Source of the DNA: an uncultured Oleiphilaceae bacterium
Lineage (GTDB): Bacteria > Pseudomonadota > Gammaproteobacteria > Pseudomonadales > Oleiphilaceae
Assembly: GCA_913060665.1 (NCBI GenBank)
Contig: CAJXUY010000007.1
Location: forward strand, 1 to 64,000
Reading direction: 5' to 3'
Length of the DNA: 64,000 nucleotides
In this document: one piece after another, positions 1 to 11,891 of the stretch
How the letters are laid out: each line of letters opens with the position of its first letter
Position numbering within the stretch: position 1 is the stretch's first letter
Notes under the pieces: generated by a model
Seen by the model: the letters and a program-made list of their open reading frames with translations, nothing else
Databases searched by the model: none
Told to the model about the DNA's origin: nothing
Position numbers and translations under genes: made by a program

Positions 1-78
1 AAATTAGTCATTAACTATGAAAGTCTAAATTTTACGTGGTCATGCAAAGCTCTCAGTTAATCTAATGAGGAAATCGTT

Positions 79-1086
79 ATGCCTAGAAAACAGCTTGCCT
101 ATAGCTTCAAAAATGAAGCGAAACAACAACTCAATTTAGACCTCTTAACATCTCATGCTCATGAATTAATTGCCGCCTACTTTGGTTTCTCAAGCCTTGC
201 GGGAATGGATTCTGACGGAGTTATACTCGAGTTCTCGAACATTGATGAGGACTGCTACAGCTTAGATGACGACGATGAGGTTGAGCCTGATAGGGTGTTG
301 TTTTATTCTCGAGCACAAAAGTTTGGATGCCCCGAGAGTAAACTAGAAGCTTTATTTCAGTTGCTGCTCCAATTAATCGAAAGTACTAACCTTCTATTCA
401 TATCGTACGGCAGCGATATTGACTATTCTTTAAGTGATAAAAATAAAGACGCTGTAGTTGGAATGTTTAAAAAAGGGCATTGCAACGCTGTCTTTTTACT
501 ACAGTGTGAGCGGCCGAAAGAATCAGATTTATACTGGTATAAACAAAAGCAAGCAGGGGAAAACGTTCCGGCGAATATGGCCGAGTTTGCAATTGAGTCC
601 GAGAAGAAATTTCTTGATTACCAATTATTCAGATCATCTTTACTATTGCTAGAAACCGCTGATAACTTATGTGCAGAGACTGCGTTGCTACTGGCTAAAC
701 ATGCAGATGAAGACCAAGAGCGCTTATATGTTCGAGCTGCTGAGTTAGGTTCATGTGAGGCAAAATCTGTTTTGGCTACAGGGTACGAATATAAAGAATG
801 GTTAGAACCAGCAGCTAAAGCTGGTTGTGCTAGTAGCCTGGAGCTTTTAGCGCGTCGAGCTGCAGATGGGGTTACTAATGAATCCGCATTTGAAGCTCAT
901 AAATGGATTTATCTATCTGAGCTATATGGCTACAACTTAACTCAGAGTACTGCAGATAATGATGAAGACTATGGCCCTGTTTTTGTCCTGTTCGAGGGGA
1001 TTGAGTTACCTAATATACCTGAAAAAGAAGTAGCTAAGGCGTTGGCGGTTGCCCAAAAAATTTACGCAGAAAATAGTCCGCGCTGA
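79..1086 (+). CDS. hypothetical protein with Sel1/TPR-like C-terminal half
   Basis: A 335-residue protein of unknown function. The ATG is preceded by a good Shine-Dalgarno sequence (GAGGAA, 7 bases upstream). No signal peptide or membrane segment is visible, so it is probably cytoplasmic. Residues 1-190 are acidic and unrecognised. Residues about 195-335 are Ala/Leu-rich short helices with phrases such as LYVRAAELGSCEAKSVLA and WLEPAAKAGCASSLELLA, which resemble Sel1-like repeats (a TPR relative used for protein binding), followed by a HKWIYLSEL helix typical of such arrays. The repeat call is my inference from spacing. It stands alone, followed by a hairpin shared with the convergent lipoprotein gene. 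Function not assigned. Confidence 0.6.
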   Translation: MPRKQLAYSFKNEAKQQLNLDLLTSHAHELIAAYFGFSSLAGMDSDGVILEFSNIDEDCYSLDDDDEVEPDRVLFYSRAQKFGCPESKLEALFQLLLQLIESTNLLFISYGSDIDYSLSDKNKDAVVGMFKKGHCNAVFLLQCERPKESDLYWYKQKQAGENVPANMAEFAIESEKKFLDYQLFRSSLLLLETADNLCAETALLLAKHADEDQERLYVRAAELGSCEAKSVLATGYEYKEWLEPAAKAGCASSLELLARRAADGVTNESAFEAHKWIYLSELYGYNLTQSTADNDEDYGPVFVLFEGIELPNIPEKEVAKALAVAQKIYAENSPR

Positions 1087-1190
1087 TTAACTGGCTGCAA
1101 TGGGTAGGGGTTATATGACATAGTTGGTGTAGGGGGGAGTAGTCTGTACTTGAAACTAATCGAGTCACCCCCCTAGCTTGCAGTATTCAA

Positions 1191-1224
1191 AAACACCGAG
1201 GATACTTTTGTACTCTCGGTGTTT
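1191..1224. terminator. bidirectional hairpin terminator
   Basis: A 10-bp perfect stem (AAACACCGAG / CTCGGTGTTT) with a 14-base loop lies between two convergent genes. The A-rich and T-rich flanks let it work in both directions. A second, weaker pairing (seven G's near 1130, C's near 1170) lies just before it. Confidence 0.6.
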
Positions 1225-1264
1225 AATTTATGCAATTGAAACTCACATGGTCTCAATAATCAAG

Positions 1265-2335
1265 TTATATTGAATATCCAGATATCAACCATTTATCTTC
1301 TGTAAATTTCATATCAACTCTTTTCAGATCAGTTCCTTTGAGTGCAACATAAGCAAAATCCCGTGTTTTCTTATTAGAATAATGGAACTTTTCTACTTCG
1401 ATATCAGCTAAGTTTGCTTTAACAAGTTTACTCGATGTTAAAGCGCGACTAGCAGAGCTCTTGCTTACCGTCACAGAGCTTAGCTTTCCCTGATTTTTAT
1501 TTTTAATTGCACTAACAAACTGGTCGACAATTTTTTGGAATTTTGAGAGCTGGTCTTCATACTCTTTTTGCACATCGCCAATTTCTTTTTGGATTGCTTC
1601 GATTCGTTGTTTGGCTGCATCCTGATAATCACTTGCTGGGTAACGTTTTAAGAATGACTGATAGGCCTCAATCCACCTTCCTTTTTCGCGATATCGTTTC
1701 TCACTCATCTTGGCTTCTTCATAGCCCATTTTTTCATATTTCTTTTGCTGTCTTTCTCTTGCTGCAACTTGTTCTTCTGCGGCCTTTCCTTCCAACTCCT
1801 TCAATATCAGGTGCAGCTCTTTGTTTTCAGGAAAGCTTTTTAGAAACTCTTTTACTTTCTTAAGTTTATTATACGATGAGCCTTTCATGTTTTTGACCGC
1901 ATCGACGGCACTGGCTTCCACATCACCTACTGCGAGAATATAGCCCTTCGCAGAAAATATACCGCCACTTTTGAGCATCAATAATGGCATCGAGTTATCC
2001 TTTACGGTTAATGCAAGCTCATAAAGATCTTCTTTTTCTTGAGGCGTAACCGAAAACTCAACTTTATTGCCTTTATTTAAGTCCATGCCCATTTGCACAA
2101 TAACCACTTTGTCAGCATCAAATTTCGGATCATGAACATAAATAGTTACTTTTTCCTTATCAATTTCAGATTTAATCAGACCTTTAAGGTTTTTTTGTTG
2201 GGGGTTGAGGGGTTTAACTTCTTCATAGCCATTGATAGTTTGTACAAATAACCCATAGGTCTCAAATTCTGGCTTAGGCTCGGAGCATGCCACCAACATG
2301 GTGACGAGAATTGAACATAAAATCCTTTTTAACAT
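1265..2335 (-). CDS. hypothetical lipoprotein with coiled-coil segment
   Basis: A 356-residue probable lipoprotein. The start at 2335 gives a clean lipoprotein signal (MLKRILCSILVTMLVACSEP, lipobox LVAC) and is preceded by GAGAG. An in-frame start 14 codons further upstream would bury the signal and was rejected. The mature protein has a beta-rich N-terminal half, then a highly charged helical stretch (about residues 195-270, rich in E, K, R and Q) likely to form a coiled coil. The short C-terminal domain ends in KWLISGYSI and resembles the beta-sheet tail of small NTF2-like lipoprotein modules. It should sit in the outer or inner membrane facing the periplasm. The family was not recognised, and no partner gene is adjacent. 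Confidence 0.6.
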   Translation of the reverse strand: MLKRILCSILVTMLVACSEPKPEFETYGLFVQTINGYEEVKPLNPQQKNLKGLIKSEIDKEKVTIYVHDPKFDADKVVIVQMGMDLNKGNKVEFSVTPQEKEDLYELALTVKDNSMPLLMLKSGGIFSAKGYILAVGDVEASAVDAVKNMKGSSYNKLKKVKEFLKSFPENKELHLILKELEGKAAEEQVAARERQQKKYEKMGYEEAKMSEKRYREKGRWIEAYQSFLKRYPASDYQDAAKQRIEAIQKEIGDVQKEYEDQLSKFQKIVDQFVSAIKNKNQGKLSSVTVSKSSASRALTSSKLVKANLADIEVEKFHYSNKKTRDFAYVALKGTDLKRVDMKFTEDKWLISGYSI

Positions 2336-3526
2336 TTTGGTTCTCTCAAGTAAGTTGAATATTAAAATTGTATCCATTTAGCATGAATGAAGGCTGAACC
2401 AAGACCTTAAAGTCCTGTAAAAACATCCTTCCATTCAGGCCTTAAATAATAACATTGTTTAGATAGAGACAAAGAGCGGGTAGAGGGCTACAGCATCACA
2501 AATTCTGATTTTTCGATGCGTATAAAGTAGCGTGATATGAGTGAGTAAAGCCCTACTATAATTAAATTCGGTGGAAGTTGTTTTCTGACTACTTGTTCAA
2601 TTGTTTCTCGCATTTAAGGGGGGTGTACTAAATCGATAGAATGTCCAATTCGCCTCAAACCTAGACCAAAAATATAAGCCTTGTAGTGATAACAAATAAG
2701 GGGGCGGTGGGAATAAAGTTTGAGCAAGTCTAAATATTTGCTTTCTCACACTAACTATTACCTCAAAAAAAGATCACTTTATTCTTATTAAATAAAAATA
2801 GCGTGTTTCAGCAACTAATTGAAATCACAACCCATTTGCTGCCTTAGATAGCAGGAGCCTGTTTAGGCAGAGAACGGCCAAAAGCAGTCATTGGGCATGC
2901 TGAAAATTGGTGAGGCGTAGCGCTGTCTTTTGGCGGAACTCTAACGCTTTTAAGTTGCCATAAAACCACTTGAAATTCAGTAACAGAAATCCTTTTCTTC
3001 TGCTGTAAATTATCTAAGTTGAGCCTCAATTATACATATTTTATGATTAAGCATCTCTTATTAACATGCCTAGCAATGTTAGGCCAGAATAGTTGCGACT
3101 TTGATCCCTAAACGGACAACCAAGATCGATACCACAAGTAATCACCGCAGCGAAAGATTTTTTTCTTCTTGAAGAAGCTTTTTTCACCCTTTCTTGTCGT
3201 GTATTTATATCAACTAAATCAACGTCAACTAAGAAGTCCTGCGCAGTAATAATTTAGCCCCTTATTATCTTATAGATCTTTAGAGGTAATATTTTGCTTC
3301 TGAGCTAGGCTGTATAGAGAATTAAATTTAAAGATTCAGTCAAGGTCGCTAGCTCAGATTAACAACATACAGGTATTTCAATAACCTTGTACGTGGGTGC
3401 TTATAATTGCTTTCCGATTTTGGTGTAAAGGTGTAAAGAGACAAAATATTTTCATCTAAAAATAATTATTCTGAATAGTTACCATTATTTTAATAAAGAA
3501 TTGCAGAAAGTGGAGTTTAATCACGT
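2336..3526. other. 1.2-kb AT-rich intergenic region
   Basis: No convincing gene is present. A 61-codon minus-strand frame (2844-3029) lacks a ribosome-binding site and recognisable content. The stretch just before 3527 is very AT-rich and presumably holds the promoter of the two-gene module, but I could not fix a -35/-10 pair. The low coding density is typical of an accessory region. Confidence 0.5.
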
Positions 3527-5161
3527 ATGAATAGTATTAATATTTTTATCAAAGAAAATGTAAAGAAAATAGGGCAAGGCGCACACGTTGCACCTGATAT
3601 CCCTGAAAAAAAATTAAATAATGCTATTGTTGCTTTCAAATGTGAAGACTTTTATGAATCCATATTGGCTATATATGATAATACCCTTATGGGCAGCTCA
3701 AAAGAGGGGTTAGTTTTTACTGGTGAAAAAATAATCTTTAATAGAGGGGAGCCTATTGAGTTTGCCTTTAATAGTCTTAAATCTATTGAACATATAAGAA
3801 ATGAAACTACAAATGAAAAGGGTAAAGTGAGTGTTGATGAATATATCATAATAGTCACAAAAGATAATGAAGATCATAAAATAACAGGGTTGAGAAGTGG
3901 GAGTTTTAGTTACAAGGAATTTTCAGTTTTATTGGATAAAATAATAACAGAGTTTGAAGATTACAAAGAAGAAGTTCAGGTAAAAACTATTATAGAAATG
4001 CCTCCAGAATTAAAGGTCGCATATTTAAAAGTTATCGTAAATATGGCATTTATAGATGACAAAATAATTGATGAAAAAGAATTGGCCGAGTTGTTTTTAC
4101 TTATGACAAGGCTTGAGTTGAATAAAGAATCAAGGTTTTCGATAAGGTCATACATTTCAGAGATAACAGAAGATACAATAGAACCTGTTAAAAGTTTACT
4201 TGATTTTATAAAAAACACTTCAGAATCAAGCCATTATAAATCTTTAATGATCTCATTGGTTAAAGATTTAATTAATGTATATTTCAGCACAAAAAATACG
4301 ATCGATAGAGATTTTTTGTTTTTAGAAGCCAATAGGGACTTATTTGATATATCTAATGAGGAAATTGATCTTGCATATTCTGCTGTGGAAAATGACTACA
4401 AGTTATTAACAGAGGATATAGATGATAGTGAAATTAAGAAAAACGCTAAGGAACTGGCTGCTAAAGCCGTTGCGGCTGGGACACCCTTGGCTGCTGTCTA
4501 TATTTCTGGTTCTGTAATTGGAATGTCAGCGGCAGGAATAACATCAGGTCTTGCAACTCTTGGCATGGGCATGGGTATGACAGGTGGTATAGCAGTTATT
4601 GGTGTCGTCGGTGTCATGTCCTATAAGGGTATGAAACATTTGACAGGTGCAAACGAATTAGATAGATATAAAACAAGAGAGTTAATGCTTCACGATGTGA
4701 TAAAGCAAACACAAAAAACAATATCATCAATCATTGATGATATTAATTATATAGTTAAGAAACTAAATGACACCATTTTAAATCATAGTGACCAAACAGA
4801 GAAAATAAAAAAGTTAGTAAAACTGGTCGCACAATTCCAAGGTGCAATGAAATCTGTTGATAACAAAGCAGAAAAATATAAAAATTCCGTTGAACGAATA
4901 CATTCCCCAAAAAATCTAGATATTGAGCGTCTTAAATCACTAACTGATTCCCCAACAAAAAAGAAAGTCTATGATTTTATAATTGAAAATTATGATAAAG
5001 AAGAAAATAGCTTTGTTTTAAAAGATAATATAACAACAGAAGTTTTAGATAAAATGGCAGAATTATTTGAAGTGTTGGGTTACTTTAACATGGATAATAT
5101 ATTGAAAGGGAAAGCAGCTGAAGGGATGAATAAGTTAAAAGGAAAATTGTTTGGTGGATAA
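3527..5161 (+). CDS. hypothetical protein: PH-like, TerB-like and Gly-rich membrane segments (module gene A)
   Basis: A 544-residue protein, first gene of a two-gene operon. Residues about 40-145 (ILAIYDNTLMGSSKEGLVFT, then alternating beta strands) look like a bacterial PH-like domain. Residues about 155-295 (ELKVAYLKVIVNMAFIDDKI, then acidic helices) resemble a TerB-like helical bundle. Residues 307-373 form a Gly/Ala/Met-rich hydrophobic stretch (SAAGITSGLATLGMGMGM) that could insert in a membrane. Residues 375-460 look like a long coiled coil. The C-terminus ends in a Lys/Gly-rich tail. Base composition is far more AT-rich than the chromosomal genes to the right, and codon use is A/T-ending, which suggests transfer. 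Spacing to the only plausible Shine-Dalgarno (GGAG) is long, about 11 bases. Domain calls are by eye. TerB-like domains recur in stress and phage-defence contexts, so a defence or membrane-surveillance role is a guess. Confidence 0.65.
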   Translation: MNSINIFIKENVKKIGQGAHVAPDIPEKKLNNAIVAFKCEDFYESILAIYDNTLMGSSKEGLVFTGEKIIFNRGEPIEFAFNSLKSIEHIRNETTNEKGKVSVDEYIIIVTKDNEDHKITGLRSGSFSYKEFSVLLDKIITEFEDYKEEVQVKTIIEMPPELKVAYLKVIVNMAFIDDKIIDEKELAELFLLMTRLELNKESRFSIRSYISEITEDTIEPVKSLLDFIKNTSESSHYKSLMISLVKDLINVYFSTKNTIDRDFLFLEANRDLFDISNEEIDLAYSAVENDYKLLTEDIDDSEIKKNAKELAAKAVAAGTPLAAVYISGSVIGMSAAGITSGLATLGMGMGMTGGIAVIGVVGVMSYKGMKHLTGANELDRYKTRELMLHDVIKQTQKTISSIIDDINYIVKKLNDTILNHSDQTEKIKKLVKLVAQFQGAMKSVDNKAEKYKNSVERIHSPKNLDIERLKSLTDSPTKKKVYDFIIENYDKEENSFVLKDNITTEVLDKMAELFEVLGYFNMDNILKGKAAEGMNKLKGKLFGG

Positions 5162-6677
5162 AAAACCTTATAAGAAAGATGAAGGTAATGCTTTAAAAGT
5201 TCAGAAGCATCAGCTAAAAGAGGCTGATGATAAAGTATCTGAAATAGATAGCCTTTTATCAAGTATTCTAAATGAGCAATCTGATAGTGATAGGCTGCTT
5301 GATAGCATGGTTGCTGAGATGGAGGGTTTGGTAAGCGATACAACTGCTGAGGTATCGCAAACTGTTTTTAATGAAACTCTAGAATCAATTGAAAAAGACT
5401 TAAATAGTGCTGGTAGCAATGTAACAATTCCGATTGTTTCAAAAATAGATCATATTGAGCTAGATGATGACTCTAGCTGGAGTGATTATCTTAATATGAT
5501 TGAAGATTACGGTTTCAAAAATAACCTTAATCTTAAGGAAGACCCTTTCCAGCATTTAATGACTAAGTCTCAGCAGGTAGAACTTCAAAAACGAATTAAG
5601 GATGATTTTACTCTAAAAAATGCTAATTGTGATCAGTATGATTACATGATTGCTGGCACCTGTGGTGTTATTGGTGGGCTAATTGATGTTCTATTTGTTG
5701 GAATGCCGGGTGATAGTAAATTAGGCAATATAACAGATGATGTAGCCAACAAAACCACAGAAAAATTTGCTTCACTTTTAGGCTGGGATAAGGAGAAAGC
5801 TCTTAATAAAGGTAGTAATACAACAAAAAGTGCGATTGGATTTTTAGAAAGAAAGTATGAAATAAATTACGATCAATCAACAACTCAAGGTGCCATTGCC
5901 AAGAGCGGCACTGGCGGGGCTGTAAAAAACCTTTCGAAAAATAACCACCACCTTAAAAGTCTGGGTCATTCGCCTGATATTGTAGGTTTGTTTTTTTCAA
6001 TTTTGAACCAGTTCACAGGTACCTCTACGTTTGTTAGTAATGGCAAAATAATAACTATTGATGCAAAAAAACATCAGTTACAAGGAGGTAACTTTATTGC
6101 AAAGATATTTTGTGGTTTTGCAAATTGGTTTGGTCATATCATGTCTGATTGGACTGGCTCATCTGGTGCAGGGGGTCGAGGTGCTGGAGTGCCGATACCT
6201 TTTTATAACCTATTTCAATTGATTAACTTTGGAAGGTTTGGAGAAAACGACAGAAAAACTTTTGCAATGATAACTAGTGAGGTTTTTGAAGAGGGCTATG
6301 ATTTTAGGCATGGAATGGCTATGGCAATTCCTGTGATCATCACAGAATTGCTAGTTAGGCTTATGTATACTATAAAGTCCCATTTCTATCATGATAAACC
6401 TTGGAAAGATTCTATTCCCAGAGCCAGTGTCCCTGAAGTTAGAAGAATGCTACTAGTCGGTCATGGTACACTTTGCTTAATTGATGGAGCAGATGCAGCT
6501 ATTCGGGCAAATGGTAATCTAGTTCAGTTTTTACTTAGAACTAATTTAATCGCATGGTCTAGAACTGGGAAACTTGCTTTAAAAGAACTGTCTGTTTGGT
6601 ATCACAGTGGTCACATAGATGCTGATATTGTTGATGAGTATTTGGATAATGAATATAAAAAAATGCTAAACGGATAG
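5151..6677 (+). CDS. hypothetical membrane-associated protein with conserved His/Asp motifs (module gene B)
   Basis: A 508-residue protein whose start overlaps the end of the previous gene by about 11 bases, so the two are translationally coupled. The start is non-ATG: TTG at 5151 or GTG at 5154, behind AAAAGGA; no in-frame ATG exists before residue 53. Residues 1-100 are acidic and helical. Residues 165-185 are a hydrophobic Gly-rich segment (GTCGVIGGLIDVLFVG). The core carries a polar, family-like block: HH at 266-267, LGHSPD at 271-276, a hydrophobic run (GLFFSILNQF), WFGHIMSD at 326-333 and GSSGAGGRGAGVPIPF. A second hydrophobic region lies at 388-410. From memory, the His/Asp block resembles a family of uncharacterised proteins scattered among distant bacteria, with no known function. 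It looks enzyme-like or metal-binding, but that is inference. Same AT-rich composition as its partner. Confidence 0.65.
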   Translation: MVDKKPYKKDEGNALKVQKHQLKEADDKVSEIDSLLSSILNEQSDSDRLLDSMVAEMEGLVSDTTAEVSQTVFNETLESIEKDLNSAGSNVTIPIVSKIDHIELDDDSSWSDYLNMIEDYGFKNNLNLKEDPFQHLMTKSQQVELQKRIKDDFTLKNANCDQYDYMIAGTCGVIGGLIDVLFVGMPGDSKLGNITDDVANKTTEKFASLLGWDKEKALNKGSNTTKSAIGFLERKYEINYDQSTTQGAIAKSGTGGAVKNLSKNNHHLKSLGHSPDIVGLFFSILNQFTGTSTFVSNGKIITIDAKKHQLQGGNFIAKIFCGFANWFGHIMSDWTGSSGAGGRGAGVPIPFYNLFQLINFGRFGENDRKTFAMITSEVFEEGYDFRHGMAMAIPVIITELLVRLMYTIKSHFYHDKPWKDSIPRASVPEVRRMLLVGHGTLCLIDGADAAIRANGNLVQFLLRTNLIAWSRTGKLALKELSVWYHSGHIDADIVDEYLDNEYKKMLNG

Positions 6678-7218
6678 CCGACTTTCTTTAAGCTTCAGTC
6701 CTCTCAATATGCCAGTTCGCACAGGAGGTTTCACTTACTTAAACCAGCCTCTAACAACGGACAAAGCCCCTCAAGTCTAAAGCACCTTGTATTGTCAGCT
6801 AAGAGTCTGCTGCTGACAAAAAATCGATAGCCCCTTTTCTTTGATTGGCCAAAACCAGCCCTTTAGATATGTGAGGAATTAGCTTCGGTCAACCATTGCT
6901 ATAGAGCAAAATCGATACTTTTTAAACAATTTGATCACAAAGTGATGTTTAAAGCAGTTCTGTGAACTTCAGTTTGATGATGCATTTCTGATAATTCACT
7001 CTGGTTATCGAAATATTACTCTTCTCCAGATTTTTCTTTAGCACAAAAGTTACTTGCAGTATTTAATGGGATGGATGTCAGATTTTTTTTAGTTAATTCA
7101 TTTATACTTACGGTGCATATACAGTTAAATCAATATGCTACGTATTTAATGTATTAAATACGCTCGAATAAACAAAACATAATAAACGATATAGTTGTAT
7201 CAATAGGGAATATATACA
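6678..7218. other. intergenic region after the two-gene module
   Basis: About 540 bases without a gene. It contains a 15-base word, TCAGCTAAGAGTCTG (6795-6809), that recurs exactly at 8724-8738. No clear poly-T terminator for the module was found. The last 100 bases are AT-rich and probably hold the promoter for the PEP-CTERM gene. Confidence 0.5.
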
Positions 7219-7920
7219 ATGAGAGTACCAATGGGAAAATCAATAATAAAAACAGGGATAATAGGGGCTGTACTGCTATTTTCAATGACCACAAATGCAT
7301 CGTTAATTGAGCATAATGGTTATGAACTGGATACAGACACAAACATCGTTACAGGTGCTGGACTAGAGTGGTTGCAGTGGGATGAGACTGTCGGCCATTC
7401 AATAGATAGCGCCCTAAGTAGTTACAGCGGTTGGAGGCTCGCCACAAACACTGAAATGTCATCATTGTATAATGATTTTTCTTTTGGGTTAACGTTTGAT
7501 GCTAATGAAAATACAGCGCAAAGTGTTAATCAGGCATTTACTGCAGATGAAAATTCTACAGCCAATAAATTTATTTCCATTTTTGGTGATACCTATAAAG
7601 CGGCTGGTTTTACATATAACTCCTCTGATCCATTTTCTCAGTCATTAGCCTTATTTGGGGGTGATAGCGATGGAGACTCTAAGTTTAATAGAGCAGAAGT
7701 GCACGACGACTATATAAATCATGTTACTAGCTTTGAATCTGCTGGTCGGGCATTTATAGATCTAGACAGCTTCTCTTCCCATTCAGCAAACCCTGCTAAC
7801 AGTGGTTATGGCATTGCTTTAGTGCGAGTTGCTTCCGTTCCTGAGCCTGGGTCACTTGCCTTGCTGGGTTTAGGTCTTGCAGGACTAAGTTTTACTCGTA
7901 AAAAACAGAGCAAACGTTAA
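7219..7920 (+). CDS. PEP-CTERM sorting-signal protein
   Basis: A 233-residue secreted protein. The N-terminus is a signal peptide (hydrophobic run IIKTGIIGAVLLF, cleavage near TNAS). The C-terminus has the full PEP-CTERM tripartite signal: VPEPGS near residue 207, a hydrophobic helix (LALLGLGLAGLSF) and a basic tail (RKKQSKR). This signal targets proteins to the exosortase EpsH/XrtA, which is tied to exopolysaccharide export. The body begins with a short strand and GLEWLQWDETVGHS, then SGWRLATNTEMSSLY, resembling the DUF1566/Lcl-type lectin-like fold common in such proteins. The start could be 7219 or the in-frame ATG at 7231. No exosortase is in the window. An Asp-rich DGDSKFNRAEVHDD stretch may bind calcium. 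Confidence 0.85.
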   Translation: MRVPMGKSIIKTGIIGAVLLFSMTTNASLIEHNGYELDTDTNIVTGAGLEWLQWDETVGHSIDSALSSYSGWRLATNTEMSSLYNDFSFGLTFDANENTAQSVNQAFTADENSTANKFISIFGDTYKAAGFTYNSSDPFSQSLALFGGDSDGDSKFNRAEVHDDYINHVTSFESAGRAFIDLDSFSSHSANPANSGYGIALVRVASVPEPGSLALLGLGLAGLSFTRKKQSKR

Positions 7921-7960
7921 TTTTACGTCTAGGGTAGAATTCTGGCAAAAAATTCAAATT

Positions 7961-8040
7961 AAAGAGCAACCAAATGCTATAGAGCTTCAGTTGCTCTTTA
8001 AAGAGGCCTCTATAAAGGTATAGAGGCCCTTTTACTTTTT
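7961..8040 (+). terminator. tandem hairpins, second a Rho-independent terminator
   Basis: The first hairpin pairs AAAGAGCAAC (7961-7970) with GTTGCTCTTT (7990-7999). The second pairs GGCCTCTATA (8005-8014) with TATAGAGGCC (8019-8028) around a 4-base loop and runs into CTTTTACTTTTT. The second is a good terminator for the PEP-CTERM gene. It lies only 20 bases before the next start, so it may also limit readthrough. Confidence 0.7.
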
Positions 8041-8059
8041 ACATAAAGGAATATTAATC

Positions 8060-8545
8060 GTGAACGCTAGAATAAACCAATCTGCACTAATGGTGTTTTT
8101 TATAGGCATCGTGTTGTTATCAGGCTGTACAGCAGTGCCTTTATTGCAAGAAGAGGATGCAAATTTTGATAAAATCACTAAATTTGAGCCAGAGAAGACC
8201 CGGTCTGTAATCTATATTCTTCGAGGGGTGGAATCTGATTTTCAAGGGCACGAGCTTTTTGTAGACGTAAATGGTGAGAGTGTTGCTACATTCCCTATGT
8301 CTTATAAAAGATTGGAATTAGGTCCTGGTGCAATTAATTTGGAACCGTCGATTCCAGGAGCTTTTTCTTTTGAAGAAGAAGAAAATTTTGATATTAAGGC
8401 TGGTGAAGTGTTTTTTGTAAGAATGGAGGCTCATGCTAGGCTCGGCATACCAAACACTGGCAGTGTAAAAAAAATACCTGCTGATCAAGCAAAGCAGATG
8501 ATCAAAGTTAATAAATTAAAACCACTAAACTCAGAAAGTATTTGA
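8060..8545 (+). CDS. hypothetical lipoprotein, DUF2846-like
   Basis: A 161-residue lipoprotein. It starts with GTG at 8060 behind a good AAAGGA. The signal is MNARINQSALMVFFIGIVLL with lipobox LSGC. The mature domain (residues about 45-150) starts with TRSVIYILRGV and continues HELFVDVNGESVATFPM, then a late AGEVFFVRMEA strand. This order is characteristic of the DUF2846 fold, a small beta-sandwich found in many periplasmic lipoproteins of unknown role. It is probably monocistronic. The family assignment is by pattern only. Confidence 0.7.
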   Translation: MNARINQSALMVFFIGIVLLSGCTAVPLLQEEDANFDKITKFEPEKTRSVIYILRGVESDFQGHELFVDVNGESVATFPMSYKRLELGPGAINLEPSIPGAFSFEEEENFDIKAGEVFFVRMEAHARLGIPNTGSVKKIPADQAKQMIKVNKLKPLNSESI

Positions 8546-9167
8546 AAATAGAAAGGACTTTTATCCTGTCCCCCAGAGCTCATGCTATTACATTAGGCGT
8601 ATTAGCTGGGTTCTAAAGCAGTGCTTTACAAGTTGAAGATTTACAGAACGTCATATGAGCGAGTTTTAGCAAGGTAACTTCTTATTCTCGCTATGTGATT
8701 TTTCAAATTAAAAATAGAAAATTTCAGCTAAGAGTCTGATGTTGATGGCCCAAGCTCAGGCAGTAAATGTCTCTAAAGGGCGAGATACTGACATATCAAT
8801 TATATTTATTGAATACCCGTTAACCATTTCGTGTTGGCGAATTAGTTTCTTCTAGTCATTGATACACCTAGCAGCCTTTCACTCTAATGGCTCAACTGTG
8901 TCATACCCACCTTTAATGTAAAAAATAAACAAACATATCAGACTGAAAATGAATGCAAGTACGTGAAATGCCACGCTTCGGCTAAGTCTTTGATTGACAT
9001 TGAAATACGGGGAATATCGCACAAATGACTGAATGTGCGAATTTTGTGCGAATATTTTACTTATTATAGACATAGTCTGACACACCAAAGTCCTGGTTGG
9101 ACTCTGGTAACCTCTTCAAATTCAGGGGTTTAGGTGTGTCTAGAAGTGTCAGTCTATGTTACTAATT
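8546..9167. other. intergenic region between lipoprotein gene and ssrA
   Basis: About 620 bases with no supported gene. It holds the second copy of the 15-base word TCAGCTAAGAGTCTG (8724-8738) and a long imperfect inverted repeat close to the ssrA 3' end. A 69-codon minus-strand frame (8879-9088) has a hydrophobic stretch but no supporting start signal. Confidence 0.5.
9071..9158. repeat. imperfect inverted repeat next to ssrA 3' end
   Basis: The left arm, CATAGTCTGACAC (9071-9083), matches the complement of the right arm (9146-9158) at 12 of 13 positions. An overlapping pair, GACACACC (9079-9086) and GGTGTGTC (9133-9140), also matches, and AAGTCC/GGACT(C) forms a small inner hairpin. It lies 10 bases beyond the tmRNA 3' end. 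It may be a transcription-end structure for ssrA or a recombination-site remnant. Confidence 0.45.
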
Positions 9168-9554
9168 TGGTGGAGACGGCGGGGATCGAACCCGCGTCCG
9201 TCAGCACTCTGCCATCGGCTCTACATGCTTAGATTCCGTTAATTAGTTTAACCTTCCACAGCCCAACGGGCAGGACGTGGTTGGCGATCTCAGTAAAATT
9301 TAGTAAAACGACCCTGAGTATGCCGCGTTACGATCCTGTTCTCAGTGACAGTCAGTAGCGCGATACAGGCACCTTGCTAAAGACCGTTAGGGTCGAAACC
9401 CTAAAAGTGTTCTTTCACTGCTTACGCAGCTAGTTGAGCACCGTAGTTGTCATCATTTGCAACTATAAGTTTACAACTTTGATTTTACGAGATTAGTTGT
9501 CATCTCGACATGCACCTTTGGTTTTGTTACCAGCGTCGAAGCCATGTCGTCCCC
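9168..9554 (-). ncRNA. ssrA: tmRNA (transfer-messenger RNA)
   Basis: This is the 387-base tmRNA that rescues stalled ribosomes together with SmpB. The 5' end (GGGGACGACATGGCTTCGAC) pairs with the 3' acceptor strand (GTCTCC before the encoded ACCA), forming the tRNA-like acceptor stem. The T-arm reads GGTTCGATCC. The resume codon GCA is at 9460 and the tag frame ends with TAA at 9422. It encodes the degradation tag ANDDNYGAQLAA, ending in the LAA signal recognised by ClpXP. smpB lies just upstream on the same strand. Ends were set by acceptor-stem pairing. Confidence 0.96.
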
Positions 9555-9565
9555 AAGGTTAATTA

Positions 9566-9595
9566 AGTATATAGGGGCGTTATGGCTGACTTCAA
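9566..9595 (-). promoter_or_regulatory. probable sigma-70 promoter of ssrA
   Basis: On the minus strand, TTGAAG (-35, 9590-9595) and TATACT (-10, 9566-9571) are separated by 18 bases. The -10 ends 11 bases before the mature tmRNA 5' end, leaving a very short 5' leader for RNase P to remove. Both hexamers are close to consensus. Confidence 0.5.
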
Positions 9596-9684
9596 GGGGT
9601 AACGAATAAAAAAGGATATTTGAATCTGATATAGGCTTCAGAGGTGTGAAGCCTATGTGTTGAACGAGAGACGTTAAGGTGAGG

Positions 9685-10164
9685 TTAAAGGCTTTTTTGC
9701 ATGGTACGTTGTTTCTCGCGGCTCCAGTCTTTTTCTTTCTCGGCGGCACGCTTGTCGTGTTGTTTCTTGCCTGTTACTAGTGCTATTTCACACTTTACCA
9801 AGTTACCGCTCCAGTATAGGGCAAGCCCTACGCAGCTGCGGCCGGTTTGGTTTATTTTAGCATTTATTTTGCTTATCTGTTTTTTATTTAATAGTAGCTT
9901 ACGTGTTCTGGTTGGGTCAGCAATGACATGAGTAGATGCGGTGGTTAACGGCGAAAAATGTGTGCCGTGTAACCAGGCTTCACCATTTTTTATCATCACG
10001 AAGGCATCGGTAAGTTGACACTTGCCCGCACGAAGGCTTTTTACTTCCCAGCCGGTGAGTACTAGACCTGCTTCAAATTTTTCTTCTATGTGGTAGTCGT
10101 GGCGAGCTTTTTTGTTTTGAGCGATGGTTCCGCTGCCGAGACTACTTTTTTTCTTTTTGGCCAT
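9685..10164 (-). CDS. smpB: SsrA-binding protein SmpB
   Basis: A 159-residue protein of the usual family length. It binds the tRNA-like part of tmRNA and carries it to stalled ribosomes. It opens with a basic tail (MAKKKKSS) and the diagnostic block [20 protein letters not shown], then [19 protein letters not shown] and [15 protein letters not shown]. The C-terminal tail ([20 protein letters not shown]) is the basic helix that enters the mRNA channel. It lies immediately upstream of ssrA on the same strand; this pairing is common in gammaproteobacteria and fits their joint function. Confidence 0.97.
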
Positions 10165-10406
10165 TGTCGTCTTTTATCTAGGAATTACTTAAGAAGGAGG
10201 GCTATTGTAACGCAACCTAAATAATAATCATGTGATATTTGCAAAATATCGGTGTTAGGTGACTCGTTTCGCTGACTTTAGTACGAATAATCTTATAGAA
10301 TTACCGCCTCTTTTGTTTCTAGCCACTTTTTAATTATCACAACGGTTACTGTTGGCGGGTATGAGGCATTTATACATGATCTCACAAGGATGTACAGCGA
10401 GTTTAT

Positions 10407-11891
10407 ATGCTGGGTAAACACGAAACGACTCACGGCTCTTGGAATAGTCAGCTAACATTTGTATTGGCTGCGACTGGGGCTGCTGTTGGCTTGGCGAACC
10501 TCTGGAAGTTCCCTTACTTGGCCGGTATGCATGGGGGCGGTTTTATTATTGCCTATGGACTTTGCTTATTGTTAGTGGGAATACCTATAGCGATGGCAGA
10601 AGTGGCATTGGGGCGCCAGGGGCGCAAAAGCCCTATTACCAGTGTGAATACGCTTGTGAGTAGTGCTGGCTCTGCGCGTGCTTGGAAAAGTATTGGCGTG
10701 TTATCTGTTGTGTCTGGTTTTTTAATTTTGGTGTTGTATTCAGTGGTTGGCGGTATGGCGCTAGCGTATGTGTTTTCGTCTGCATTTGGTGAGTTCGCTG
10801 GTGGTGGGCCTGCCAAGGTAGTTGATGTTCTTCGTCGGCTTCAATCTTCTCCTAGTTATTTCTCTTCGTGGCATACGTTGTTTCTATTATTAGTGGTTGT
10901 GGTGCTAGCGCGTGGTGTTAACAGAGGCTTAGAGCGTGCAGCCAGAATTTTGCTACCGTTGATGGTCGTGTTGATTGTGATCTTGTTGATGTTTTCGATT
11001 GAATACGGGTCGGTGACGCAGGGGGTTAACTTTCTATTTGCTATGAAAAAATTAACCCCTCAGGCATGGTTAGATGCTCTAGGGCATGCCTTTTTTACCC
11101 TTGGTATTGGTGCTGGGGCGATGATGGTGTATGGCGCGTATATGCCAAGTCGAGCAAAAATTGGTCGTTTGATGCTGATCGTGGCCCTGTTAGATTTAGC
11201 TATTGCAGTTGCAGCAGGTTTGGTTGTTTTTCCTATTCTGTTTGCCGGTAATTTAGCGCCAATTGCAGGGTTTGGGCTGGTTTTTCACTCAATGCCGTTA
11301 GCCTATAGTTCAATGGATGGCGGGCAGTTTATGAGTGTAATGTTTTTTGTGCTGGTGACGTTTGCCGCATGGAGCTCTGCGATTGCGGTTATGGAGCCTG
11401 CGGTGGCATGGTGTGTAGAGACGTTTAATGTTAACCGCCGGTTTGCGACGTTGATGGTGGCAGTGGCTGCATGGGGGGTGGGCGTTGCGGCTATATTATC
11501 CTTTAGCAGTTGGCAAAGTGTGCAGCTCTCCGGGATTAGTATTTTCAATGGACTTGATATTATTACTTCACGATTTTTATTGCCCTTGTGCGGTTTATTG
11601 ATTTCAGTGTATGTGGGTTGGGTGTTGCAAAAGGAGCTTATCGGTGCTCAGTTTGAGAACTATCAGCCTTGGTTTTTTAGTTTATGGCGTTTGATTCTCA
11701 GATGGTTTGCACCCGTTGCCGTTGTTACTATTTTTATAGCCAGCCTGTTTGAGTTGGGAGAGAATCTTTGTCAGAAGAAGGAGAGGGTATTTTGTTCGGG
11801 TTTTGATTCGAACTCAATGCCAGAGCGCCAAGACAGTGGTGATTTTAACCTGAAAGAGGATGCAGGTGTTGATAAGGTTTCCGCTGAATGA
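10407..11891 (+). CDS. sodium:neurotransmitter symporter family (SNF/NSS) transporter
   Basis: A 494-residue inner-membrane protein with about 11-12 hydrophobic helices. The N-terminus carries the family signature: SWNSQLTFVLAATGAAVGLA, then NLWKFPYLAG, which contributes sodium and substrate sites in LeuT-like proteins. It should import an amino acid or similar organic solute with sodium, but the substrate cannot be read from sequence. The C-terminus is a short hydrophilic tail. It is divergent from smpB and followed by ratA on the same strand after 156 bases. This conserved neighbourhood (transporter, ratA, rnfH) is seen in related marine bacteria, from memory. Confidence 0.88.
   Translation: MLGKHETTHGSWNSQLTFVLAATGAAVGLANLWKFPYLAGMHGGGFIIAYGLCLLLVGIPIAMAEVALGRQGRKSPITSVNTLVSSAGSARAWKSIGVLSVVSGFLILVLYSVVGGMALAYVFSSAFGEFAGGGPAKVVDVLRRLQSSPSYFSSWHTLFLLLVVVVLARGVNRGLERAARILLPLMVVLIVILLMFSIEYGSVTQGVNFLFAMKKLTPQAWLDALGHAFFTLGIGAGAMMVYGAYMPSRAKIGRLMLIVALLDLAIAVAAGLVVFPILFAGNLAPIAGFGLVFHSMPLAYSSMDGGQFMSVMFFVLVTFAAWSSAIAVMEPAVAWCVETFNVNRRFATLMVAVAAWGVGVAAILSFSSWQSVQLSGISIFNGLDIITSRFLLPLCGLLISVYVGWVLQKELIGAQFENYQPWFFSLWRLILRWFAPVAVVTIFIASLFELGENLCQKKERVFCSGFDSNSMPERQDSGDFNLKEDAGVDKVSAE

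Follow-up and report, generated by a model that had tools for sequence, protein, structure and literature searches.

Identity of the gene pair

The 64,000 nucleotides analysed here (the window), positions 1 to 64,000 of contig CAJXUY010000007.1 from an uncultured Oleiphilaceae bacterium (GCA_913060665.1), raise the question of what two overlapping AT-rich genes near the transfer-messenger RNA (tmRNA) gene ssrA encode and how they came to lie there. A sequence-only reading had called them uncharacterised and the best candidate in the stretch for an undescribed system, a claim that does not hold: judged by its sequence, the pair is the named anti-phage system Bunzi (BnzA plus BnzB), models of which were already in PADLOC-DB 2.0.0 (2023) and whose name appears in publications since that year. 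Taken together with its location, the pair very probably makes up an intact Bunzi anti-phage system, lodged beside the tmRNA gene in an island whose cargo is exchangeable, a confidence that covers identity and role and leaves mechanism aside. The two open reading frames (ORFs), which have the 544 and 508 residues first proposed, are as follows:

3527..5161, + strand: bnzA, BnzA of Bunzi, 544 amino acids (aa); PADLOC PDLC03833, E 6.9e-171, residues 1-537 on profile positions 1-539 of 544
5151..6677, + strand: bnzB, BnzB of Bunzi, 508 aa, TTG start as listed; PADLOC PDLC03834, E 2.8e-197, residues 8-507 on profile positions 9-502 of 504

The genes are co-directional and overlap by 11 nt in the ORF list, and the order bnzA then bnzB, adjacent and on one strand, is the Bunzi arrangement. 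The invariant residues of the BnzA and BnzB alignments are present in the window proteins, and there is no internal stop. Full-length matches, order, strand, overlap and hotspot location are all as in Bunzi, and no architectural difference from the profiles was found. Because both profiles are matched over nearly their full length at E < 1e-170 and the identities of A and B covary between loci (r 0.949 over 23 pairs, L037 left out; 0 of 2000 permutations as high), the pair looks like more than a chance association.

No Pfam or NCBIfam family above cut-off was found for either window protein and PHROGs gave no match better than E 0.04, so that the pair looks uncharacterised outside the defence library; sequence searches of solved structures with BnzA and BnzB, singly and as profiles, returned none at E 0.1 or better. 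Bunzi was reportedly first described by Millman et al. in 2022. A literature search turned up no Bunzi mechanism among the papers listed, and Bunzi stands with many others among the systems whose mechanism a 2026 review gives as "Unknown" (PMC12926258). TerB (PF05099) is given for both Shango and Bunzi in another article (PMC10952713). Shango, known from P. aeruginosa and E. coli and placed in core defence hotspots (PMC10250203), has a TerB-like domain, as BnzA possibly does, but consists of three genes including a helicase and an ATPase, none of which is present at the window locus. The phage-defence role that had been suggested is thus upheld by family match and location, and what had been an unknown two-gene module becomes a named defence system that needs no discovery campaign. 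The locus itself offers little that is new; of moderate interest are the hotspot and the way BnzB occurs with one partner or another.

Pairing, distribution and origin

BnzB relatives were gathered by profile scans of genome contigs (best 80 of 195 kept) and of viral contigs (16), and 25 loci had near full-length matches (L016-L038, L041, L096), from which L030 was dropped for its broken B frame. A BnzA sequence lies directly upstream of BnzB in all 24 remaining loci, with overlapping ends in 18; in three it is seen in part, at contig ends (L017, L021) or with an interrupted frame (L025). The tight coupling proposed for the two genes is therefore recovered across loci: homologues do pair, and no housekeeping family is matched.

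The nearest relative found is a Sulfurimonas locus, 65% (A) and 67% (B) identical to the window copy. In a 36-row BnzB tree, the window sequence groups with five rows from Campylobacterota and one from Mariprofundaceae (support 99/97), apart from the copies of Vibrio, Photobacterium, Aeromonas, Morganella and Shewanella; a long-branch warning in this tree concerns L006/L008 and L011, all far from the window. BnzA occurs in one of five genomes of the genus, and BnzB was matched in 3 of the 369 genomes sampled from the class, convincingly in one, the matches at L002 and L003 (E 8-9e-4, partial profile) being treated as chance. Because of the tree grouping and the scarcity in both genus and class sample, lateral acquisition of the pair, as had been supposed, is likely rather than proven. 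That the pair has no part in defence and is instead a housekeeping module of the envelope-stress or tellurite type, with which a TerB-like domain (itself not conclusive) and hydrophobic segments would agree, is extremely improbable beside this patchy presence (one of five genomes in the genus and convincingly 1 of 369 in the class sample), the near full-length Bunzi match and the ssrA defence hotspot described below.

Among 72,556 plasmid records, a BnzB-like stretch is present in 491, of which 436 are conjugative and most come from Enterobacter, Salmonella, Klebsiella, Citrobacter and Escherichia, and two records match the window BnzA. Bunzi is reported on Salmonella IncHI1 plasmids (PMC11305592), and it may be guessed that these calls are of the short-partner type described below. 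An Acetobacter plasmid (L015, 4623-6101) carries a BnzA-like gene with an extra N-terminal part, ending after the hairpin and adjoined by an IS30 transposase, which is possibly a decayed copy; no BnzB-like gene is annotated in the fetched stretch, where no sequence search was made.

The island beside the tmRNA gene

The genes and segments surrounding the pair are:

1265-2377, - strand: lipoprotein-looking ORF, 370 aa
7219-7920, + strand: PEP-CTERM protein, by family scan
8060-8545: small probable lipoprotein
9168..9554, - strand: tmRNA gene (ssrA), by ARAGORN; its 3' end faces the island
9685-10164, - strand: smpB, named by sequence and by position beside the tmRNA gene
2893..6790: cargo segment differing from sibling genome G372, where other genes fill 17.75 kb; by flank identity
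2536..8910: segment missing from sibling genome G371, where its two flanking pieces lie about 7 bp apart; by flank match

The AT-richness and long flanks that had been noted are confirmed: GC content is 0.311 in bnzA and 0.361 in bnzB vs 0.443 in window positions 9685-64000, GC at third codon positions (GC3) is low (0.248 and 0.265 vs 0.444 in smpB), and the flanks measure about 1.1 and 0.5 kb because the gene-like ORFs closest to the pair are 1265-2377 (-) and 7219-7920 (+).

The flanks in G372, a genome from another species of the genus, are nearly identical to those of the window (99.7% over 51-2892 and 98.8% over 6791-9596), and between them the window holds 3.9 kb with Bunzi vs 17.75 kb in G372. 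Beyond the tmRNA gene, window 9707-11761 is 71% identical to G372, and the stretch from 9707 on about 71-75%, with a sharp break near the tmRNA start; the near-identical island flanks probably record a recent exchange that included the tmRNA gene. In G371, window 1189-2535 and 8911-9173 match the joined positions 35551-34206 and 34198-33937. In that genome an integrase adjoins ssrA, whose 3' end recurs as a 28-bp copy at a distance of about 28 kb, so that the ssrA 3' end is a probable integration site. The copy was seen in G371 only: no second ssrA 3' end with up to five mismatches was found in the window, where the contig starts at base 1 and a copy further out is possible. The idea that the boundary segments of the exchanged cargo are multicopy repeats was rejected, these segments being single copy in the genome.

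The cargo differs from genome to genome. SIR2-HerA, IetS-like and type IIG restriction genes are present in G371 and ZorA2/ZorB2-like genes in G372 (L144, 2538-4054); in G369, Ssp and Pbe genes lie between ssrA and the lipoprotein gene, and in G370, JetA, JetC and JetD (Wadjet), HmaA and a PtuA-like ATPase lie beside ssrA, at a site where the lipoprotein gene was not found. Different defence genes are thus present on the tmRNA side in five of five genomes of the genus, the window included (window 2536-9168; L139-L145), as judged by a PADLOC scan of 19 proteins from selected large ORFs in the four siblings, to which the G371 integrase was added. That scan covered the ssrA side with no control site, and in a promoter and terminator scan signals stayed at chance level; both points weigh against the reading of the pair as an intact system carried in an exchangeable island. 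The region downstream of the tmRNA gene is a defence hotspot of the genus, with a defence set of its own in each of the five genomes and, in one, near-identical flanks around other cargo. As a known defence hotspot, ssrA flanks cDHS2 of P. aeruginosa (PMC10250203) and hosts hotspot 9 of E. coli (PMC10121019).

The G372 cargo also contains two tandem nSTAND1 NTPases of 747 and 717 aa (L143, 11167-16101, - strand), near-alike over their first 60 residues. The nSTAND1 protein that was scanned has almost no PADLOC match, and the two are a possible undescribed NLR-like defence pair. The PEP-CTERM protein at 7219-7920, which lies inside the island and is 100% identical in G372, has a weak Lcl_C domain match. 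The tag peptide of the window tmRNA is ANDDNYGAQLAA (ARAGORN), which is of the beta/gamma-proteobacterial type.

Predicted structure of BnzA

An AlphaFold model of BnzA built from 22 sequences (mean predicted local distance difference test, pLDDT, 80.6) divides the protein into four parts:

3563..3949, + strand: probable bacterial PH-like fold, BnzA residues 13-141; AlphaFold model, VIA Z 8.3 to 3dcx and 8.2 to 3hsa
4004..4351, + strand: helical bundle, possibly TerB-like, BnzA residues about 160-275; VIA, 2h5n
4466..4651, + strand: Gly/Ala/Met-rich hydrophobic stretch, presumed membrane hairpin, BnzA residues about 314-375; 19-mers of Kyte-Doolittle (KD) value 1.77 and 1.54
4670..4900, + strand: two long helices, coiled-coil-like, BnzA residues 382-458; AlphaFold secondary structure

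The two top VIA rows for the N-terminus are bacterial PH domains (104 residues aligned to 3dcx at 3.0 Å), a third row, 4tyz, is tied at Z 7.9, and PH-like folds make up most of the remaining rows, at Z 6-7; the bPH_3 profile matches one of the 22 BnzA sequences weakly. For the bundle, 2h5n, a TerB-like structure, gave Z 6.8 over 130 of 132 residues, where a Z under 8 may reflect a common arrangement and the aligned range of 37..330 makes the bundle limits approximate. DUF533 is matched weakly in 3 of 22 BnzA sequences (E up to 0.1) and not in the window BnzA. Because Foldseek with the BnzA model gave no E under 0.07, the PH and TerB likenesses are matches at the level of fold, and the TerB one is weak: this part of BnzA is possibly TerB-like, on evidence that is supportive and not conclusive. 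From the domain composition proposed earlier for this protein, the Gly-rich hydrophobic stretch and the long helices are therefore retained, the PH-like fold as probable, and the TerB-like bundle in a weaker form. The Gly-rich stretch is conserved across the BnzA alignment, with pLDDT under 50 at residues 332-375, and a 19-mer with KD of at least 1.6 is present in 22 of 22 sequences.

The conserved core of BnzB

BnzB was modelled from 64 sequences as almost entirely helical (pLDDT 87.8, predicted template modelling score, pTM, 0.70), and two features stand out:

5166..5339, + strand: long N-terminal helix, BnzB residues 6-63; AlphaFold model
5631..6545, + strand: BnzB core, residues 161-465; alignment of 64 sequences, window included

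Eight polar or charged residues, D164, D179, D241, H266, H273, H329, D333 and N465, never vary among the 64 aligned sequences, which reach down to 24% identity; D161, Y240, S332, D384, E399 and R403 are each found in more than 90%. The most hydrophobic 19-mer of the window BnzB, at 166, has a KD value of 1.92, and a 19-mer with KD of at least 1.6, membrane-like by hydropathy, occurs in all 64 sequences. Both the hydrophobic segment and the conserved polar core that the sequence-only reading had seen in this protein are therefore real. A metal enzyme could have just this appearance, an invariant Asp/His set among membrane-like helices.

Several results weigh against the step from conservation to a membrane-associated enzyme. 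Pfam searches with the 64 sequences gave 16 families, each weak in a single sequence and none common to more than one; sequence comparison with the PDB gave no match, and searches by fold gave nothing significant in Foldseek against the PDB (best E 1.0) or in the viral library (best E 0.05), while the best VIA row (Z 6.4) was to AglB helices, a common helical arrangement. Since no shared family, PDB sequence match or significant fold match was found, an enzyme function is argued for by conservation, and absence from the fold match lists does not make the fold new. Wimley-White (WW) octanol values for the helices are mixed, and the helices could instead make a channel or a soluble bundle.

A more specific identity, in which BnzB is a divergent YdjM/DUF457 (PF04307) membrane-bound metal hydrolase, was suggested by the order of its motifs, alike by eye (Asp, H..H, HxxxD, then a Gly/Pro-rich stretch). 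YdjM/DUF457 belongs to the phospholipase C / P1 nuclease clan. The comparison was not borne out: the hhalign probability is 0.3%, the score of 13.5 lies within the range of 60 column-shuffled decoys (median 12.2, maximum 19.8), 10 to 21 of 40 decoys reach or exceed the observed score across nine settings, and PF04307 is absent from the 16 Pfam families weakly matched by the 64 sequences. Such a relationship is very improbable.

A possible mechanism

The hydrophobic segments of both proteins argue for the link to the membrane that had been proposed, and the best-supported working model, offered tentatively and at well under even odds, combines a membrane-linked sensor or scaffold with a membrane-associated, metal-enzyme-like effector. 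BnzA would hold its PH-like and TerB-like domains in the cytosol, its glycine-rich hairpin would lie in or enter the inner membrane, and it would also have a coiled coil. BnzB, helical and associated with the membrane, would act as a metal-dependent enzyme through its invariant Asp/His cluster, perhaps on a lipid or some other phosphoester. Once triggered by phage infection, BnzA would set BnzB free or concentrate it, whether or not the hairpin inserts, and the membrane of the infected cell would fail before phage production.

Alternatively, Bunzi may be non-suicidal, with BnzA and BnzB forming a complex in the membrane that would keep phage DNA from entering or stop infection at another early step. 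The hydrophobic segments of both proteins, by which both may associate with the membrane, would suit such a complex, and library scans found no nuclease or NTPase family above cut-off in either protein. This alternative leaves the enzyme-like invariant residues of BnzB unexplained, otherwise nothing specific speaks against it, and it is rather unlikely.

Different partners of BnzB

Neighbouring genes were compared over the wider set of BnzB loci (104, being 107 minus L030, L098 and L100 with broken or partial frames). At 77 of the 104, a gene next to BnzB on the same strand encodes a Gly/Ala-rich hydrophobic segment of 40 residues, compared with 34 of 722 other ORFs of at least 100 aa in the same loci, which counts in favour of the working model; thresholds were set after a first sight of the partners, the control counts single ORFs instead of whole loci, and the loci stem from related sequences, near-copies included. 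Among the 27 loci without the segment, eight lie near the end of the stored stretch, two (L018, L025) have a BnzA or part of one below threshold, and the other 17 have small upstream ORFs or different neighbours.

Hairpins of this kind occur in membrane-active proteins. It is accordingly worth weighing that BnzA is the killer, its Gly-rich hairpin forming pores in or destabilising the membrane, with BnzB as regulator, sensor or antitoxin-like restrainer, since the stretch accompanies BnzB at these 77 loci even where PH and TerB parts are missing. BnzB is, however, the more widespread protein (491 plasmid records vs 2 for BnzA) and holds an invariant Asp/His set that a pure regulator would not need, and this arrangement is unlikely, though less so than a block to DNA entry.

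The partners fall into several types. A BnzA-size protein upstream was found at 24 loci, a 362-403 aa protein downstream at 35, a 281-368 aa protein upstream at 10 and a 184-208 aa protein upstream at five, with three others (L045, L052, L107). The downstream type resembles PDC-M09, a phage-defence candidate of PADLOC: in L. plantarum (L007, the one scanned of the 35) a BnzB-like gene (E 1.1e-100) is followed directly by the gene of an M09A-like partner (E 2.1e-70) that has a Gly/Ala-rich hydrophobic stretch, and a partner of such size and place is found in 35 loci, L007 included. It differs in that this partner is downstream and has no match to the PH/TerB part of BnzA, and the M09B models match the L007 BnzB-like protein weakly (E 0.005). 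The 281-368 aa upstream partner at L009 (the one scanned of the 10) is weakly PDC-M09A-like, and a PADLOC scan of the window BnzA and BnzB gave no PDC-M09A match, the window partner being BnzA.

Short-partner modules (plasmid L011; viral L104, L105, L110 and L111) combine a BnzB core with a protein of 165-208 aa that is similar by profile to the hairpin part of BnzA, at E 3.8e-12 in L011 and between 1e-6 and 3e-8 in the viral modules, but lacks the PH and TerB parts, and their BnzB-like proteins are about 24-29% identical. The short type and the hairpin part of BnzA were aligned by hhalign at 96.7% vs 53.6% for the reversed control, and the 165-aa Salmonella plasmid partner matches BnzA 301-413 only. 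Between the downstream 362-403 aa and upstream 281-368 aa types a relationship is clear (hhalign 100%). Compared with the hydrophobic part of BnzA, the upstream type gave 92.2% vs 9.9% reversed and the downstream type 14.6% vs 79.6% reversed; the two types may share ancestry with BnzA, but Gly/Ala composition alone can yield such values.

A broader reading, held with a little less than even confidence, is that membrane-linked defence modules form a wider family in which BnzB, enzyme-like, stays constant as the core and the partner is exchangeable; this partner may be BnzA, the M09A-like downstream protein, the 281-368 aa hairpin protein upstream or the bare hairpin-plus-coil of enterobacterial plasmids and viral contigs; what the modules share as output or anchor would be the hairpin, with PH/TerB as one sensor head among several. 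If true, BnzB would be a new class of membrane-associated enzyme. The list of its conserved residues together with the comparison of partners provides direct targets for mutagenesis.

Three further observations concern individual loci. An enterobacterial plasmid (L011, 4154-6044), the one enterobacterial record examined, encodes a 165-aa hydrophobic hairpin protein and a 462-aa BnzB-like protein. In a viral contig (L107, upstream of 4647), a 459-aa partner has its hairpin toward the C-terminal side and a long N-terminal part absent from the short partners, perhaps another sensor head. Small ORFs (about 70-130 aa) without a hydrophobic segment precede the BnzB-like genes at L010, L013, L014, L099, L101-L103, L106 and L109, and these loci may represent a further partner type.

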